Positions 53,818-59,180 of a DNA stretch of 64,000 nucleotides are shown in pieces. This stretch comes from Candidatus Rhodoblastus alkanivorans (GTDB lineage Bacteria > Pseudomonadota > Alphaproteobacteria > Rhizobiales > Beijerinckiaceae). How positions within the stretch are numbered: position 1 is the first letter of the stretch; each line of letters starts with the position of its first letter. The notes below the pieces were generated by a model, which was given only the letters and a program-made list of their open reading frames with translations, searched no databases and was not told the DNA's origin. The stretch lies in assembly GCF_022760755.1 (NCBI RefSeq), contig NZ_JAIVFP010000001.1, positions 1,964,001-2,028,000 of the forward strand, read 5' to 3'. Both the position numbers and the translations under genes were made by a program.

Positions 53818-56001
53818 ATGATGCGGCAATACGAACTCGTCGATCGCGTTCGCAAATATAATCCGCACACCGACGAAGACCTGCTCAACCGCGCCTATGT
53901 CTATGCCATGCGCGCCCATGGCCAGCAGAAGCGCGCTTCCGGGGATCCCTATTTCACCCATCCGCTCGAAGTCGCCGCGATCCTCACCGAACTGAAGCTC
54001 GACGACGCGACCATCGTCGCGGCCGTTCTGCACGATACGATCGAGGACACCGGCGCCACCAAGGCCGAAATCGATTCCCTGTTCGGCCACGAGATCGGCC
54101 GTCTCGTCGATGGCCTGACCAAGCTGAAAAAGCTCGATCTCGTCTCCAAACGCGCGGCGCAGGCGGAAAATTTCCGCAAGCTGCTGCTGGCGATCGCCGA
54201 GGACGTGCGCGTGCTGCTGGTGAAGCTCGCGGACCGGCTGCACAATATGCGCACGCTGCATTACGTCTCGCCGGACAAAAGGGCGCGGATCGCCCAGGAG
54301 ACGCTCGACATTTATGCGCCGCTGGCCGGGCGTATGGGCATGCAGAATCTGCGCAACGAGCTGGAGAATCTCTCGTTCAGATATCTGATGCCCGAAGCTT
54401 TCGCGATGGTGTCGACGCGGCTCGAGGATTTGCGCGAAACGAACCGCGAGCTGATCAAGACCATCGAGGACGAACTGACCGAAGAGCTGGCGCTGCGCGG
54501 CATCGAGGCCGAGGTCCACGGGCGCCAGAAACAGCCCTATTCGGTATGGAGCAAGATGGAGCGCAAGTCGCTCTCCTTCGAGCAGCTTTCGGACATTTTC
54601 GGCTTCCGCGTCGTCGTCGGCGACGTCGACGAGTGCTACAGGGTCATCGGCGTCGTCCACACCAAATGGCCCATGGTGCCCGGCCGCTTCAAGGATTACA
54701 TCTCGACGCCCAAGCAGAACGACTACCGCTCGATCCACACCACGGTGGTCGGGCCGGGCCGCCAGCGCGTCGAACTGCAAGTGCGCACGCGCGAGATGCA
54801 CGAGATCGCGCGCTACGGGATTGCGGCGCATTCGTTCTACAAGGACCAGCCCGACGCGCCGGCGCCCGTGCTCTCGCACGAGAGCAGCGCCTACCAATGG
54901 CTCAAGCGCACGATCGACATGCTGGCGGAAGGGTCGAGTCCGGAAGAGTTTCTGGAGCACACAAGGCTGGAGCTGTTCCACGACCAGGTGTTCTGCTTCA
55001 CTCCAAAGGGCCGCCTGATCGCGCTGCCGCGCGGCGCGACGCCGATCGACTTCGCCTATGCTGTCCACACCAGCGTCGGCAATTCGGCGGTGGGCGCCAA
55101 GATCAACGGGCGCATCGCGCCTTTGCTCGCGCCGCTCGACAATGGCGACGAGGTGGAGATCGTGCGCGCGGAAGGCCAGATCCCGCCGGCCGCGTGGGAA
55201 ACGATCGCGGTCACCGGCAAGGCGCGCGCGGCGATCCGGCGCGCCACCCGCGACGCCGTGCGCGCGCAATATGCCGGCCTCGGCCGCCAGATCGTGTTGC
55301 GCGCCTTCGAGCGCGCCGGCAAGAAATTCTCCGAGGACAAGCTGCGTCCGTCCCTGCCGCGCCTTGCGCACTCCAACATCGAGGATGTACTGGCGGCGGT
55401 CGGGCGGGGGGAAATGTTCTCGGGCGACGTGGTGAAGGCGGTCTATCCCGATTTCAAGGAAGAGCGGAAGGCGCCGGCGCCCGACCGCTCCGAGCCCGGC
55501 TGGTTCCGCATGCAGAAGGCCCAGGGCGTCGAGTTCAAGTCGCCACATAATGGCGAGGCGGTGCCGATCCGCGGTCTCCAGGGCGACCTGCCGGTGAGTT
55601 TCGCGCCCAACGGCGCGGTGCCGGGCGACCGCATCGTCGGCATCATGACGCCGGGCGAGGGGATCACGGTCTATCCGATCCAGTCGCCGGCGCTCGAAGC
55701 CTTCGACGACCAGCCGGAGCGCTGGCTCGATGTGCGCTGGGACGTCGAGGACGCCCAGGCCCTGTTTCCGGCCAGGATCATGGTCGCGGCGATCAACGAG
55801 CCGGGCAGCCTCGGCGCGGTGGCGGCTCTGATCGGCGAACAGGGCGCCAATATCGACGATGTGAAATTCAACAAGAAATCCCCGGACTTCCGCGAGATCA
55901 GCTTCGACGTTCAGGTCTTCGACCTGAAACACCTCAATGATATTCTCTCTCGCCTGCGCATGTTGCCGATGGTCCACAGCGTCGAGAGGGTGATCGGCTG
56001 A
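53818..56001 (+). CDS. rsh: Bifunctional (p)ppGpp synthetase/hydrolase
   Basis: RSH enzyme of 727 residues controlling the stringent response. The HD hydrolase domain retains HDTIED (72-77). The synthetase has the RFKD (290-293) RXKD motif of bifunctional enzymes rather than the EXDD of monofunctional RelA, and YRSIHTTVVGPGRQRVELQVRT. TGS (about 390-450) and C-terminal ACT (about 650-727) domains follow. All activities appear intact, as expected for the single Rsh of alphaproteobacteria. Start ATG 53818 or 53821. Confidence 0.97.
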   Translation: MMRQYELVDRVRKYNPHTDEDLLNRAYVYAMRAHGQQKRASGDPYFTHPLEVAAILTELKLDDATIVAAVLHDTIEDTGATKAEIDSLFGHEIGRLVDGLTKLKKLDLVSKRAAQAENFRKLLLAIAEDVRVLLVKLADRLHNMRTLHYVSPDKRARIAQETLDIYAPLAGRMGMQNLRNELENLSFRYLMPEAFAMVSTRLEDLRETNRELIKTIEDELTEELALRGIEAEVHGRQKQPYSVWSKMERKSLSFEQLSDIFGFRVVVGDVDECYRVIGVVHTKWPMVPGRFKDYISTPKQNDYRSIHTTVVGPGRQRVELQVRTREMHEIARYGIAAHSFYKDQPDAPAPVLSHESSAYQWLKRTIDMLAEGSSPEEFLEHTRLELFHDQVFCFTPKGRLIALPRGATPIDFAYAVHTSVGNSAVGAKINGRIAPLLAPLDNGDEVEIVRAEGQIPPAAWETIAVTGKARAAIRRATRDAVRAQYAGLGRQIVLRAFERAGKKFSEDKLRPSLPRLAHSNIEDVLAAVGRGEMFSGDVVKAVYPDFKEERKAPAPDRSEPGWFRMQKAQGVEFKSPHNGEAVPIRGLQGDLPVSFAPNGAVPGDRIVGIMTPGEGITVYPIQSPALEAFDDQPERWLDVRWDVEDAQALFPARIMVAAINEPGSLGAVAALIGEQGANIDDVKFNKKSPDFREISFDVQVFDLKHLNDILSRLRMLPMVHSVERVIG

Positions 56002-56023
56002 AAATGTCCGAAAGGCCCAAGCG

Positions 56024-56908
56024 ATGAGTTCCGCGAAAAAAATCCGCCTCGGCGTCAATGTCGATCATGTCGCCACGCTGCGCAACGCGCGCGGCGGCGC
56101 CGTTCCCGATCCCGTTCGCGCGGCGCAGATCGCCTTGGCGGCGGGCGCCGACGGGATCACCGCGCATCTGCGCGAGGATCGCCGCCATATTCAGGACGAG
56201 GACATGCGCCGCCTCAAGGAGGCAATCAACGCGCCCTTGAATTTCGAAATGGCGGCGACCGAGCAGATGCTCGACATCGCCTTGAAAATCCGGCCTCACG
56301 CCTGTTGCCTGGTGCCGGAGAAGCGCACCGAGCGCACCACCGAAGGCGGGTTGGACGTCGTTGGCGGACGTGACCGCCTCGCCCCTTTCGTCGATGAGCT
56401 GTCGCGCGCCGGCGTGCGCGTGTCCTTGTTCATCGAGCCTTCCATGGAGGCGCTCGCCGCCGCCAAAGAGGTGAAGGCGCCGGTGGTCGAGCTGCATACG
56501 GGCGCCTGGTGCCACGCGCTTGAAATCGGTGAGAGGGAGAAGGCCGTAGCCGAATTCGCGCGGCTGCGGGCCGCGGCTGTGGAAGCCGAGCGGCTTGGCA
56601 TCGAATGTCACGCCGGCCATGGGCTGGACTTCGACACGGCCCGGGAAATCGCCGCCTTTCCCCAGATCGTCGAGCTGAACATCGGTCATTTCCTGGTCGC
56701 GGAGGCGATCTTCATCGGCCTCGACGCCGCGATCCAGCGGATGATCGCGGCGATTTCCCAGGGACGCGGCGAAACGTCGCCGCAATTGGGGGAGCGACGC
56801 GGCGAAACGTCGCCGCAATTGGGGGAGCGACGCGGCGAAACATCGCCGCCATCGGCGGAGGGACGCGGCGAAACATCGCCGCTATTGGGGGAAGGGCGCG
56901 GCCTGTGA
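56024..56908 (+). CDS. pdxJ: Pyridoxine 5'-phosphate synthase with repeat-derived tail
   Basis: PdxJ (294 residues) joins DXP and 3-amino-2-oxopropyl phosphate to make PNP (vitamin B6). The TIM-barrel body is normal: [55 protein letters not shown] and GHGLDFDTA. From about residue 248 the protein leaves the family and becomes four 11-residue repeats ([11 protein letters not shown] and variants). Normal PdxJ is about 240-250 residues. The repeat DNA forms hairpins. The TGA overlaps the acpS GTG. Confidence 0.97.
56765..56905 (+). repeat. In-frame tandem array of hairpin-forming 33-bp repeats
   Basis: Four full 33-bp units (starting at 56765, 56798, 56831 and 56864) and a 9-bp partial fifth lie inside the pdxJ reading frame. 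Each unit holds GCGGCGA-AACG-TCGCCGC, a perfect 7-bp stem; units 3 and 4 have AACA in the loop with the stem kept. The unit also holds a TTGGGGGAG stretch; the last one sits close to the acpS start and may act as its Shine-Dalgarno. No unique spacers separate the units, so this is not a CRISPR. Confidence 0.9.
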
Positions 56909-57306
56909 TCGTCGGCCTTGGCGTCGATCTTTGCGACATCCGCCGCGTCGAGCGGGTGCTGGAGAAATATGGCGACCGCTTCACCCGCCGCTGTTTCACG
57001 GCCATCGAGCGCGCCAAGGCCGACGGCCGCAAGGCCCGCGCCGCGACCTACGCCAAAAGATTCGCCGCCAAGGAAGCCTGCGCCAAGGCGCTCGGCACCG
57101 GGCTGGGGCAGGGCGTGGGCTGGCAGGAAATGGGCGTGGTGAACGACGCTTTCGGCAAGCCGTCGCTGGAGCTGTCCGGCGCCGCCGCCGAGCGCTTGGC
57201 GCGTCTCACGCCGCCGGGCCATGAGGCCCGCGTCCATCTGACGCTCACCGACGAATATCCGCTCGCCCAGGCGCAGGTAATGATCGAGGCTTTGGCGAAG
57301 TCCTGA
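56905..57306 (+). CDS. acpS: Holo-[acyl-carrier-protein] synthase
   Basis: AcpS (133 residues) transfers phosphopantetheine from CoA to apo-[14 protein letters not shown] carries the metal-binding Asp, and [17 protein letters not shown] carries the second Glu. The start is GTG at 56905, overlapping the pdxJ TGA (GTGA). Its Shine-Dalgarno (GGGGGAAGGG, 56887-56896) lies in the last copy of the pdxJ repeat. In many Rhizobiales lepB-rnc-era would follow; here an accessory segment does. Confidence 0.96.
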
Positions 57307-57639
57307 TTGGCTCGTCTCGCCGCCCGGCGCGCCAATTCCGGCGAAAGCGGCGGGGGTGGAAATCATTTGGACAGGATAAAACCCGTCTGGAATTGCGGAT
57401 CATTGTTGTTTGTTTGTTCAATATGAAACGTCCGCGCCGGCGTGGGCTATTTCGGGGCGCCGTCCACTGTAACCCATGTCACCGTAACCCCGTAGCCACC
57501 GTAACCAGCGGGACGAACTTTCCGCTGGAGTCCAAAATGTTTCGGTTTAATCTGGCTGGCAGGGCGCCCCCACAAGGGGGGCCTGTACCTCCCCGCGTGG
57601 GGGCAAAACGGATGTTGATATAACTCAACGGAGGAGCAG
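57307..57639. repeat. Repeat-rich junction after acpS
   Basis: About 330 bp without a gene. It contains three copies of a CACYGTAAC motif (57465-57473, 57480-57488, 57497-57505), the middle one as CATGTCACCGTAAC, which matches the ends of the nearby RAYT element. Two GC hairpins follow: GCCCCC-ACAA-GGGGGC (57566-57581) and CTCCCC-GCGT-GGGG (57589-57602), just before a small gene at 57640. Confidence 0.6.
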
Positions 57640-58173: not shown

Positions 58174-59180
58174 GGTTACGGTGATGATACGAATCCCCTA
58201 ATTTGAAAAAGGGAAGCAACGGAGGCGCAACGGCGGTCGTCGATCTTCGGAATGCGGGAGAATTGCAGAATCTGCGGCGCGGAACGGGAACAGCCGAAAA
58301 TTCAATCGATTGCTCAAATTCAGCATCGGAAATCTCTGCCAAGCCGTCCAAAATGCAACCGGACGCCACGAATGCGCCGCGCGCAAGGCAGGTGACCTGT
58401 TGGCGCAGCGGCAGGCCGATTCATTTATCGATGGCGCCAGGTTTCGGACCGCGCTTCTGTGGCCGCACCATTCGCCCGAGTCTGGCTTCGATTTCGTTCA
58501 AAAATGCCTCTCCGCCCATGGGCCGGCCATTTGCGCCGGCGAGTTCAAAGGCTGCCGCTTCGGCGGGCCGTAAATTGTCGCCGAGCAATTGCCGAAATTT
58601 CGGCGCCCGCGCCAACCCCGGCGTCACATCGACCAATTTGTCGTTCTTGCCCGCCAAATGCGCGGCGACGCTGCTGTGCGGCCAGTCTTCCGGCCGTTTG
58701 ACCCGCCTCGCGCGAACGGGATTGAACGCGAGATAGCGCAAGGCGCTTATCAAATGGTCTTCGTCCATGACCGAACAGGCGAAACGCCCCTGAAACAAAT
58801 GGCCGGTGACCCGCGCGCGAGCGTTGAAAAACGCCGTATAGCGCCGATGCGCCTCGCCGACCGCGCGCGACAGTCCAGTTTCGCTCGACGGGGTCAGAAT
58901 GAGATGGACATGGTTGGGCATCAGGCAATAGGCCCAGCAGGCGACGCCATTGGCGCGGCAGCACTCGGCGAGCAGATCGCGATAAAGCGCATAATCGCTT
59001 TCCTCGACAAACAGCTTTTGCCGCCGGTTGCCGCGCTGGGTGACATGATGGGGCAGATCGGGAGCGATGATGCGAGCAATACGGGCCATGACAGCATGCC
59101 AGACAAGAAATCAGCTCATTCGTATCATTGTGAGCCGCGCAAATAAATTGGGGAATTCGTATCATGTCACCGGAATTCCG
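58174..59180 (-). mobile_element. RAYT (REP-associated tyrosine transposase) element
   Basis: The element of about 1.0 kb has inverted ends. The left end (58178-58204) reads CGGTGATGATACGAAT then CCCCTAATTT; the right end (59145-59172), read on the minus strand, gives CGGTGACATGATACGAAT then TCCCCAATTT. The two differ by a 2-base gap and a few substitutions. The transposase lies inside on the minus strand. A further partial copy (ATTCGTATCATTGTGA) is at 59118-59133. Exact borders are uncertain. Confidence 0.75.
58421..59089 (-). CDS. REP-associated tyrosine transposase (Y1/HUH)
   Basis: A 222-residue single-strand HUH transposase of the RAYT (TnpA-REP) group. The opening ARIARIIAPDLPHHVTQRGNRRQ is diagnostic; the HUH motif is MPNHVHLIL (His60, His62) and the catalytic Tyr is probably Tyr119 in ALRYLAFNPVRAR. 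RAYTs are domesticated relatives of IS200/IS605 that process REP palindromes. The catalytic residues are intact. It lies within inverted ends related to other repeats in this segment. Confidence 0.94.
   Translation of the reverse strand: MARIARIIAPDLPHHVTQRGNRRQKLFVEESDYALYRDLLAECCRANGVACWAYCLMPNHVHLILTPSSETGLSRAVGEAHRRYTAFFNARARVTGHLFQGRFACSVMDEDHLISALRYLAFNPVRARRVKRPEDWPHSSVAAHLAGKNDKLVDVTPGLARAPKFRQLLGDNLRPAEAAAFELAGANGRPMGGEAFLNEIEARLGRMVRPQKRGPKPGAIDK

Follow-up and report, generated by a model that had tools for sequence, protein, structure and literature searches.

The closest described counterparts of the locus reported here are coding minisatellites, which consist of head-to-tail, in-frame units, vary in copy number between relatives and lie outside conserved domains. 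Palindromes have also been described in frame within metabolic genes: the Rickettsia palindromic elements, in the available part of the source (PMC10969869), are ~150 bp long and dispersed in many genes. GTAG- and CGTC-tagged REPs are short stem-loops. According to the part of PMC3733652 available to us, the CGTC type is mainly alphaproteobacterial and sometimes found inside genes, has an 8-9 bp stem whose first two positions are A-T and an unpaired tag at one end, occurs in many copies, and shows negligible head-to-tail arrangement. A REP moved by a RAYT would be accompanied by the transposase gene in the genomes that carry it, with the same repeat flanking that gene. Finally, the accessible parts of PMC6728339 and PMC10666635 report translational coupling for short gene overlaps, with termination-reinitiation in overlapping gene pairs.

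We analysed a stretch of 64,000 nucleotides from Candidatus Rhodoblastus alkanivorans, here called the window, in which the end of pdxJ carries a tandem array of 33-bp units. The array shares with coding minisatellites its head-to-tail units, their in-frame length in a multiple of 3, a position outside the conserved domain, and a varying copy number; here, however, the variation is between species, and the array lies immediately before the start of an overlapping gene. It resembles the Rickettsia elements in being a palindrome in frame within a metabolic gene, but it is 33 bp long, tandem and confined to one locus. Like the REPs, it is a short stem-loop. Its stem, in contrast, is 7 bp long with G-C in the outer positions, the units are head-to-tail and dispersed copies were not found, and it does not fit the CGTC type as characterized in the available text of PMC3733652. 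The overlap of pdxJ with acpS, 4 nt long where coupled pairs have 4 or 1, is a very common one and nothing unusual, and it resembles pairs with termination-reinitiation in sequence. In the limited literature collection searched, no paper linked Rhodoblastus with pdxJ, and no title treated a pdxJ/acpS overlap with such a repeat.

Results and Discussion

An in-frame array of 33-bp units at the 3' end of pdxJ

The pdxJ gene, at 56024..56908 on the + strand, encodes a pyridoxine 5'-phosphate synthase of 294 aa (PF03740 at residues 8-244, TIGR00559 at 8-244, NF003624 at 4-250), and acpS, at 56905..57306 (+), encodes a holo-ACP synthase of 133 aa (PF01648, TIGR00516). The acpS gene is reported to be essential in E. 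coli in the accessible part of PMC8708148. At the pdxJ 3' end, TRF places an array at 56760-56902 with a period of 33, 4.3 copies, 90% matches and a score of 216, the highest of the nine TRF rows in the window. Four full units start 33 bp apart, at 56760..56792 (hairpin 56766-56783), 56793..56825 (hairpin 56799-56816), 56826..56858 (hairpin 56832-56849) and 56859..56891 (hairpin 56865-56882), all on the + strand. They are followed by a partial fifth copy without a hairpin at 56892..56902 (+), the end of which is set by TRF. The second unit differs from the first by one base. Every full unit contains a perfect 7-bp hairpin, GCGGCGA-AACR-TCGCCGC, in which the loop is AACG in units 1 and 2 and AACA in units 3 and 4 while the stem is kept. 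An earlier note on this DNA had described the in-frame units, their hairpins and the change of loop, and TRF and the sequence bear out each of these points.

Each unit of 33 bp, or 11 codons, reads in the pdxJ frame as (G/R)RGETSP, then three variable residues, then E, and this frame is open to 56908. The acpS frame is open upstream across 56605-57306 (+), and the array therefore contains no stop codon in either of the two frames. Four near-identical 33-bp copies arranged head-to-tail are a duplication by any reading. As regards a possible assembly artefact, units are also present in the assemblies of three relatives.

The array forms a tail of ~45 residues on PdxJ. In Pfam and NCBIfam the best-matching stretches stop at residues 244-250, short of this tail, which supports the suggestion in the earlier note that the array is an addition to the enzyme. 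The tail itself has no Pfam match and is presumably disordered; the eight matched PDB sequences all stop at query residue 253 or earlier. Tail length was compared across 110 related loci (30 + 80, some genomes being represented twice, e.g. L022/L094, L023/L095 and L031/L093). Beyond residue 240 the tail has a median of 13 residues and a 90th percentile of 19, and the longest is the one described here (54 residues), followed by those of G007 (30) and R. acidophilus (26). In one other genus member, two partial pdxJ matches (G001:C53:13308-13780, - strand; loci L061 and L062) resemble a decayed duplicate; they lie ~1.2 kb away from the intact gene.

Tandem arrays and hairpins elsewhere in the genome

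Arrays as strong as that in pdxJ are not rare in this genome. We ran TRF on 20 evenly spaced stretches of 20 kb (400 kb) together with the window, a sample of 464 kb that yielded 93 rows, and three distinct loci outside the window outscore the pdxJ array. The period is a multiple of three in 12 of the 14 rows that score at least 100, a count that includes the pdxJ array and some overlapping rows and that was made by period, not by gene frame. The pdxJ array is thus a plain duplication of a sort found elsewhere in the genome. Perfect 7-bp hairpins with loops of 3-8 number 92 in the window (1.44 per kb), and five of them fall within 56700-56910. Two of the sampled arrays deserve mention in their own right. 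At L190:10677-11556 (about 1710677-1711556 of G000:C1), the 13-mer GTCGGACGGGTTG is repeated perfectly 67.7 times over 880 bp, and at L196:15209-15340 there is an array of 4.1 copies (90%) with a period of 32, which is not a multiple of 3.

Copy number in relatives and origin of the unit

The earlier note had proposed a comparison of unit number at the pdxJ-acpS junction in related genomes. Our set comprised 11 Rhodoblastus genomes, including this one (G000), R. acidophilus DSM 137 (G008) and R. sphagnicola DSM 16996 (G005). Unit number does vary: there are four units at the pdxJ end in G000, two in G007, and one each in G010 (tail EGRGGTSPLSGEGRGL) and G003, and zero in the remaining 7 of the 11 (G001, G002, G004, G005, G006, G008 and G009). 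Even the sister genomes G007 and G003 differ in the length of the PdxJ tail. Beyond the genus, no unit was found in the pdxJ tails that were read, namely the 14 longest of 110 plus others. Unit 4 of the array and the last unit of G007 have an identical stretch of 28 bases. Between G000 and G007, 36 of 852 ten-codon windows from rel, the pdxJ core and acpS show no difference at all, so this identity is at most mildly unusual.

The four genomes that carry the unit form one clade. In rooted trees of rpoB, the pdxJ core and acpS (4557 nt; two outgroup genera; FastTree local support), from which G026 (pdxJ not found by motif) and G033 (no rpoB match) were left out, this clade has a support of 0.999 with nucleotides, 0.974 with codon positions 1+2 and 0.866 with protein. 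Its sister is the zero-unit pair G002+G004, and the joint group has supports of 1.0, 0.978 and 0.998, respectively; the branch to the genus is poorly supported (0.34, 0.81 and 0.23). In a protein tree of rel, pdxJ and acpS alone, the carriers take a basal position in the genus, but support is weak (29-52). Such a position would mean that the other members had lost the unit, which the rooted trees do not support. Because the four carriers form one clade within zero-unit lineages, the history that these trees most simply suggest is a single gain followed by changes in copy number. At the same junction, R. acidophilus DSM 137 (L031/L093) has an unrelated 12-bp in-frame repeat (VAQG; (GVAQ)n), which also repeats the Shine-Dalgarno-like CAAGG.

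The acpS start is older than the array

The acpS GTG at 56905-56907 overlaps the pdxJ TGA by 4 nt (56905..56908, + strand). This overlap is common to all 11 genus members, seven of which are without any unit, and to 79 of the 110 related loci. Hence, the acpS start does not owe its existence to the array, contrary to the earlier note. That note had also placed a purine-rich stretch directly before the GTG. Such a stretch is indeed supplied by the array, where the Shine-Dalgarno-like GGGGGAAGGG (56887..56896, +) spans the end of the last full copy and the partial copy; it lies not directly before the GTG but 8 nt 5' of it, an ordinary Shine-Dalgarno spacing. The stretch apparently falls within the array because the array grew upstream of an acpS start that already existed. 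For positions -20 to -4, anti-SD pairing is predicted at -8.4 kcal/mol in this genome; the values for the seven zero-unit genus members run from -4.0 to -8.4 kcal/mol. Across 17-nt windows from the pdxJ core the mean is -3.5 kcal/mol, with 18% of windows at -6 or stronger.

A probable local coding minisatellite

What accounts for these observations? We consider it likely that the array is a local coding minisatellite, arisen in place and probably near-neutral, on a variable PdxJ tail. We propose that a 33-bp segment appeared once at the pdxJ end, in the ancestor of one Rhodoblastus clade, and that replication slippage or unequal recombination would then have produced two copies in G007 and about four in this genome. 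Steps of 33 bp, or 11 codons, would keep both the pdxJ frame and the older 4-nt overlap with acpS. Growth of the array would have been tolerated because frame and overlap are kept, the PdxJ domain ends before the array, and the tail varies among relatives. Translation of acpS is probably coupled to that of pdxJ through the old overlap, and the hairpins may be a by-product of a palindromic, GC-rich unit. On this account, the locus is a clean, small example of a coding repeat that apparently arose once, beside an overlapping start, and that occurs in nature in 0, 1, 2 and 4 copies. It would show that repeat growth can be tolerated at the tail of an enzyme with the frame and the stop/start overlap intact.

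A possible regulatory role for the array

A possible regulatory role for the array draws its support from the repetition of Shine-Dalgarno-like stretches and the predicted folding of this one genome. The earlier note had suggested that acpS translation is tuned by the number of hairpins; more broadly, acpS translation after pdxJ could depend on how many hairpins there are, or on how many Shine-Dalgarno-like stretches lie between them. Two features recur in each unit, a G-rich stretch and a 7-bp hairpin worth about -12 kcal/mol by itself, and copy number differs between species. The predicted anti-SD pairing of the G-rich stretches is -8.4 to -10.0 kcal/mol, and a value of -8.4 or stronger occurs in 4.5% of 690 12-nt windows from the pdxJ core. 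Were AcpS to depend on copy number, the array would be a natural dial on coupling. However, the array sits inside pdxJ, where translating ribosomes would be expected to unfold it, and 7 of the 11 genus members do without the unit.

The folding predictions weakly suggest tuning by hairpin number. For this genome, the Shine-Dalgarno-like stretch has a predicted unpaired fraction of 0.35, 0.32, 0.04, 0.09 and 0.03 with 0, 1, 2, 3 and 4 units removed, such that removal of two or more units lowers its openness. Across species, in contrast, predicted openness does not track unit number: it is 0.53 in G010, 0.50 in G007, 0.54 in G003, and 0.09 to 0.48 in the seven zero-unit genus members. The array RNA folds somewhat better than shuffled sequences (z-score -1.81, with 10 of 200 shuffles folding as well), and in its best fold the units pair with one another in a nested arrangement instead of forming four hairpins of their own. 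We regard control of acpS by the array as unlikely.

The retention of the stem had been taken in the earlier note as a hint of selection on structure, and this is not supported. All eight units, from four species, keep all seven stem pairs. Over these eight sequences, five pairs are constant, two have changes on a single side, which give wobble pairs, and none has changes on both. The codons of the stem are about as stable in core genes: in columns with the same amino acid across the four carriers, CGC is invariant in 70% (n 115), GGC in 77% (n 115), TCG in 70% (n 40) and CCG in 60% (n 50). With codons this stable in core genes (60-77%), the keeping of the stem in the unit, with one change to a wobble pair, need not reflect an RNA function. 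Within 56000-57500, no Rfam family exceeds its gathering score and no promoter-like site was found, and the array has no terminator-like site. A sub-threshold match to the sX13 sRNA lies over the array on the - strand (56771-56886; 23.4 bits against a gathering score of 50) and is likely due to the GC hairpins.

Less likely alternatives: a selected protein tail, or a ladder of ribosome sites

An alternative explanation is that the 11-residue repeats give PdxJ a useful disordered tail. The RGETSP core is kept in seven of the eight units, the eighth having a change of E to G, while some third positions vary; furthermore, the first unit of G007 differs from that of G003 by four synonymous and zero non-synonymous changes in the first nine codons, counted by eye. 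This pattern hints at some constraint, which could act on the peptide or on the DNA, and it counts against the minisatellite explanation proposed above, as do the retention of all stem pairs and the lower predicted openness once two or more units are removed. The rest of the unit changes freely, however, and the differing tail lengths of G007 and G003, the lack of a Pfam match in the tail and the end of all matched PDB sequences by query residue 253 also count against a selected tail, which we judge decidedly improbable.

A further proposal concerns the acpS start region, which each unit would duplicate in the form of an anti-SD-pairing G-rich stretch and a hairpin. The array would then be a ladder on which ribosomes pause or land, and its length would set the PdxJ:AcpS ratio. 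We think this very unlikely to be correct; were it true, the R. acidophilus 12-bp repeat with its CAAGG would be a second instance.

No support for a mobile palindromic element

The last alternative is the in-frame insertion of a mobile palindromic element (REP or Rickettsia-palindromic-element type), for which a nearby REP-type transposase might have been responsible. The earlier note had likewise raised the recent spread of a mobile hairpin and proposed a genome-wide search for the unit. A palindromic unit within a gene is what this explanation predicts, yet no full copy was found outside the pdxJ junction. We scanned 199 family genomes, including 10 of the 11 genus members (G009 missing), for a 28-base core of the unit with no more than 3 mismatches. 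It matched four times in G000, twice in G007 and once each in G010 and G003, all eight at pdxJ; one further match, with 3 mismatches, is in another genus (G178). No record in the plasmid and phage collections matched at E 0.01. A search of its own genome with the 147-bp array returned, apart from the array, 39 partial matches, none above 34.6 bits (best E 0.0245), and no whole unit was seen by eye in the 19 of these 39 surroundings that were inspected. One similar palindrome, in L008 (G000:C1:2135668-2135691, - strand), does exist elsewhere: it stands alone and has 21 of 24 bases of unit 1 (GGGAC and both arms) with a different loop, and nothing more of the unit lies beside the matched 24 bases.

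The hairpin was also searched for by itself. With the loop of the 18-mer fixed and up to 2 mismatches allowed, G000 has 10 matches outside the array, of which one has a single mismatch and nine have two, and the reversed control has 0; this excess favours a mobile element. The seven unit-free genus genomes have 41 matches against 16 in controls. With the loop left free, in contrast, the 11 genus genomes contain 98 matches (8 in arrays) against 127 in the reversed control. Because the free-loop matches do not exceed the control, we read the fixed-loop excess as a probable reflection of GC-rich codon sequence. Given only partial matches elsewhere, a free-loop count below control and empty plasmid and phage collections, a mobile hairpin was rejected.

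A Y1_Tnp transposase gene, RAYT-like, does lie nearby (58424-59089, - strand). A Y1_Tnp match is present in only 3 of the 11 genus members (G000, G005 and G009), however, and is absent from the three other carriers of the unit (G003, G007 and G010). Moreover, the gene is flanked by inverted repeats that differ from the unit. With three of four carriers lacking the transposase and its flanking repeats being different, we rejected a REP moved by this neighbour. The mobile-element explanation is already largely contradicted, and we find it scarcely credible.

The transposase gene has repeats of its own. Imperfect 21-nt inverted repeats, 90% complementary, stand on either side of it (58184-58204 and 59145-59165), and beside it lies the dispersed 20-mer GAATTCGTATCATGTCACCG, which is unlike the array unit and has 15 matches in the genome with at most 3 mismatches, against 0 in the control. 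The gene and its inverted repeats are a possible TIRtron, in the sense in which the available part of PMC3733652 uses that term.
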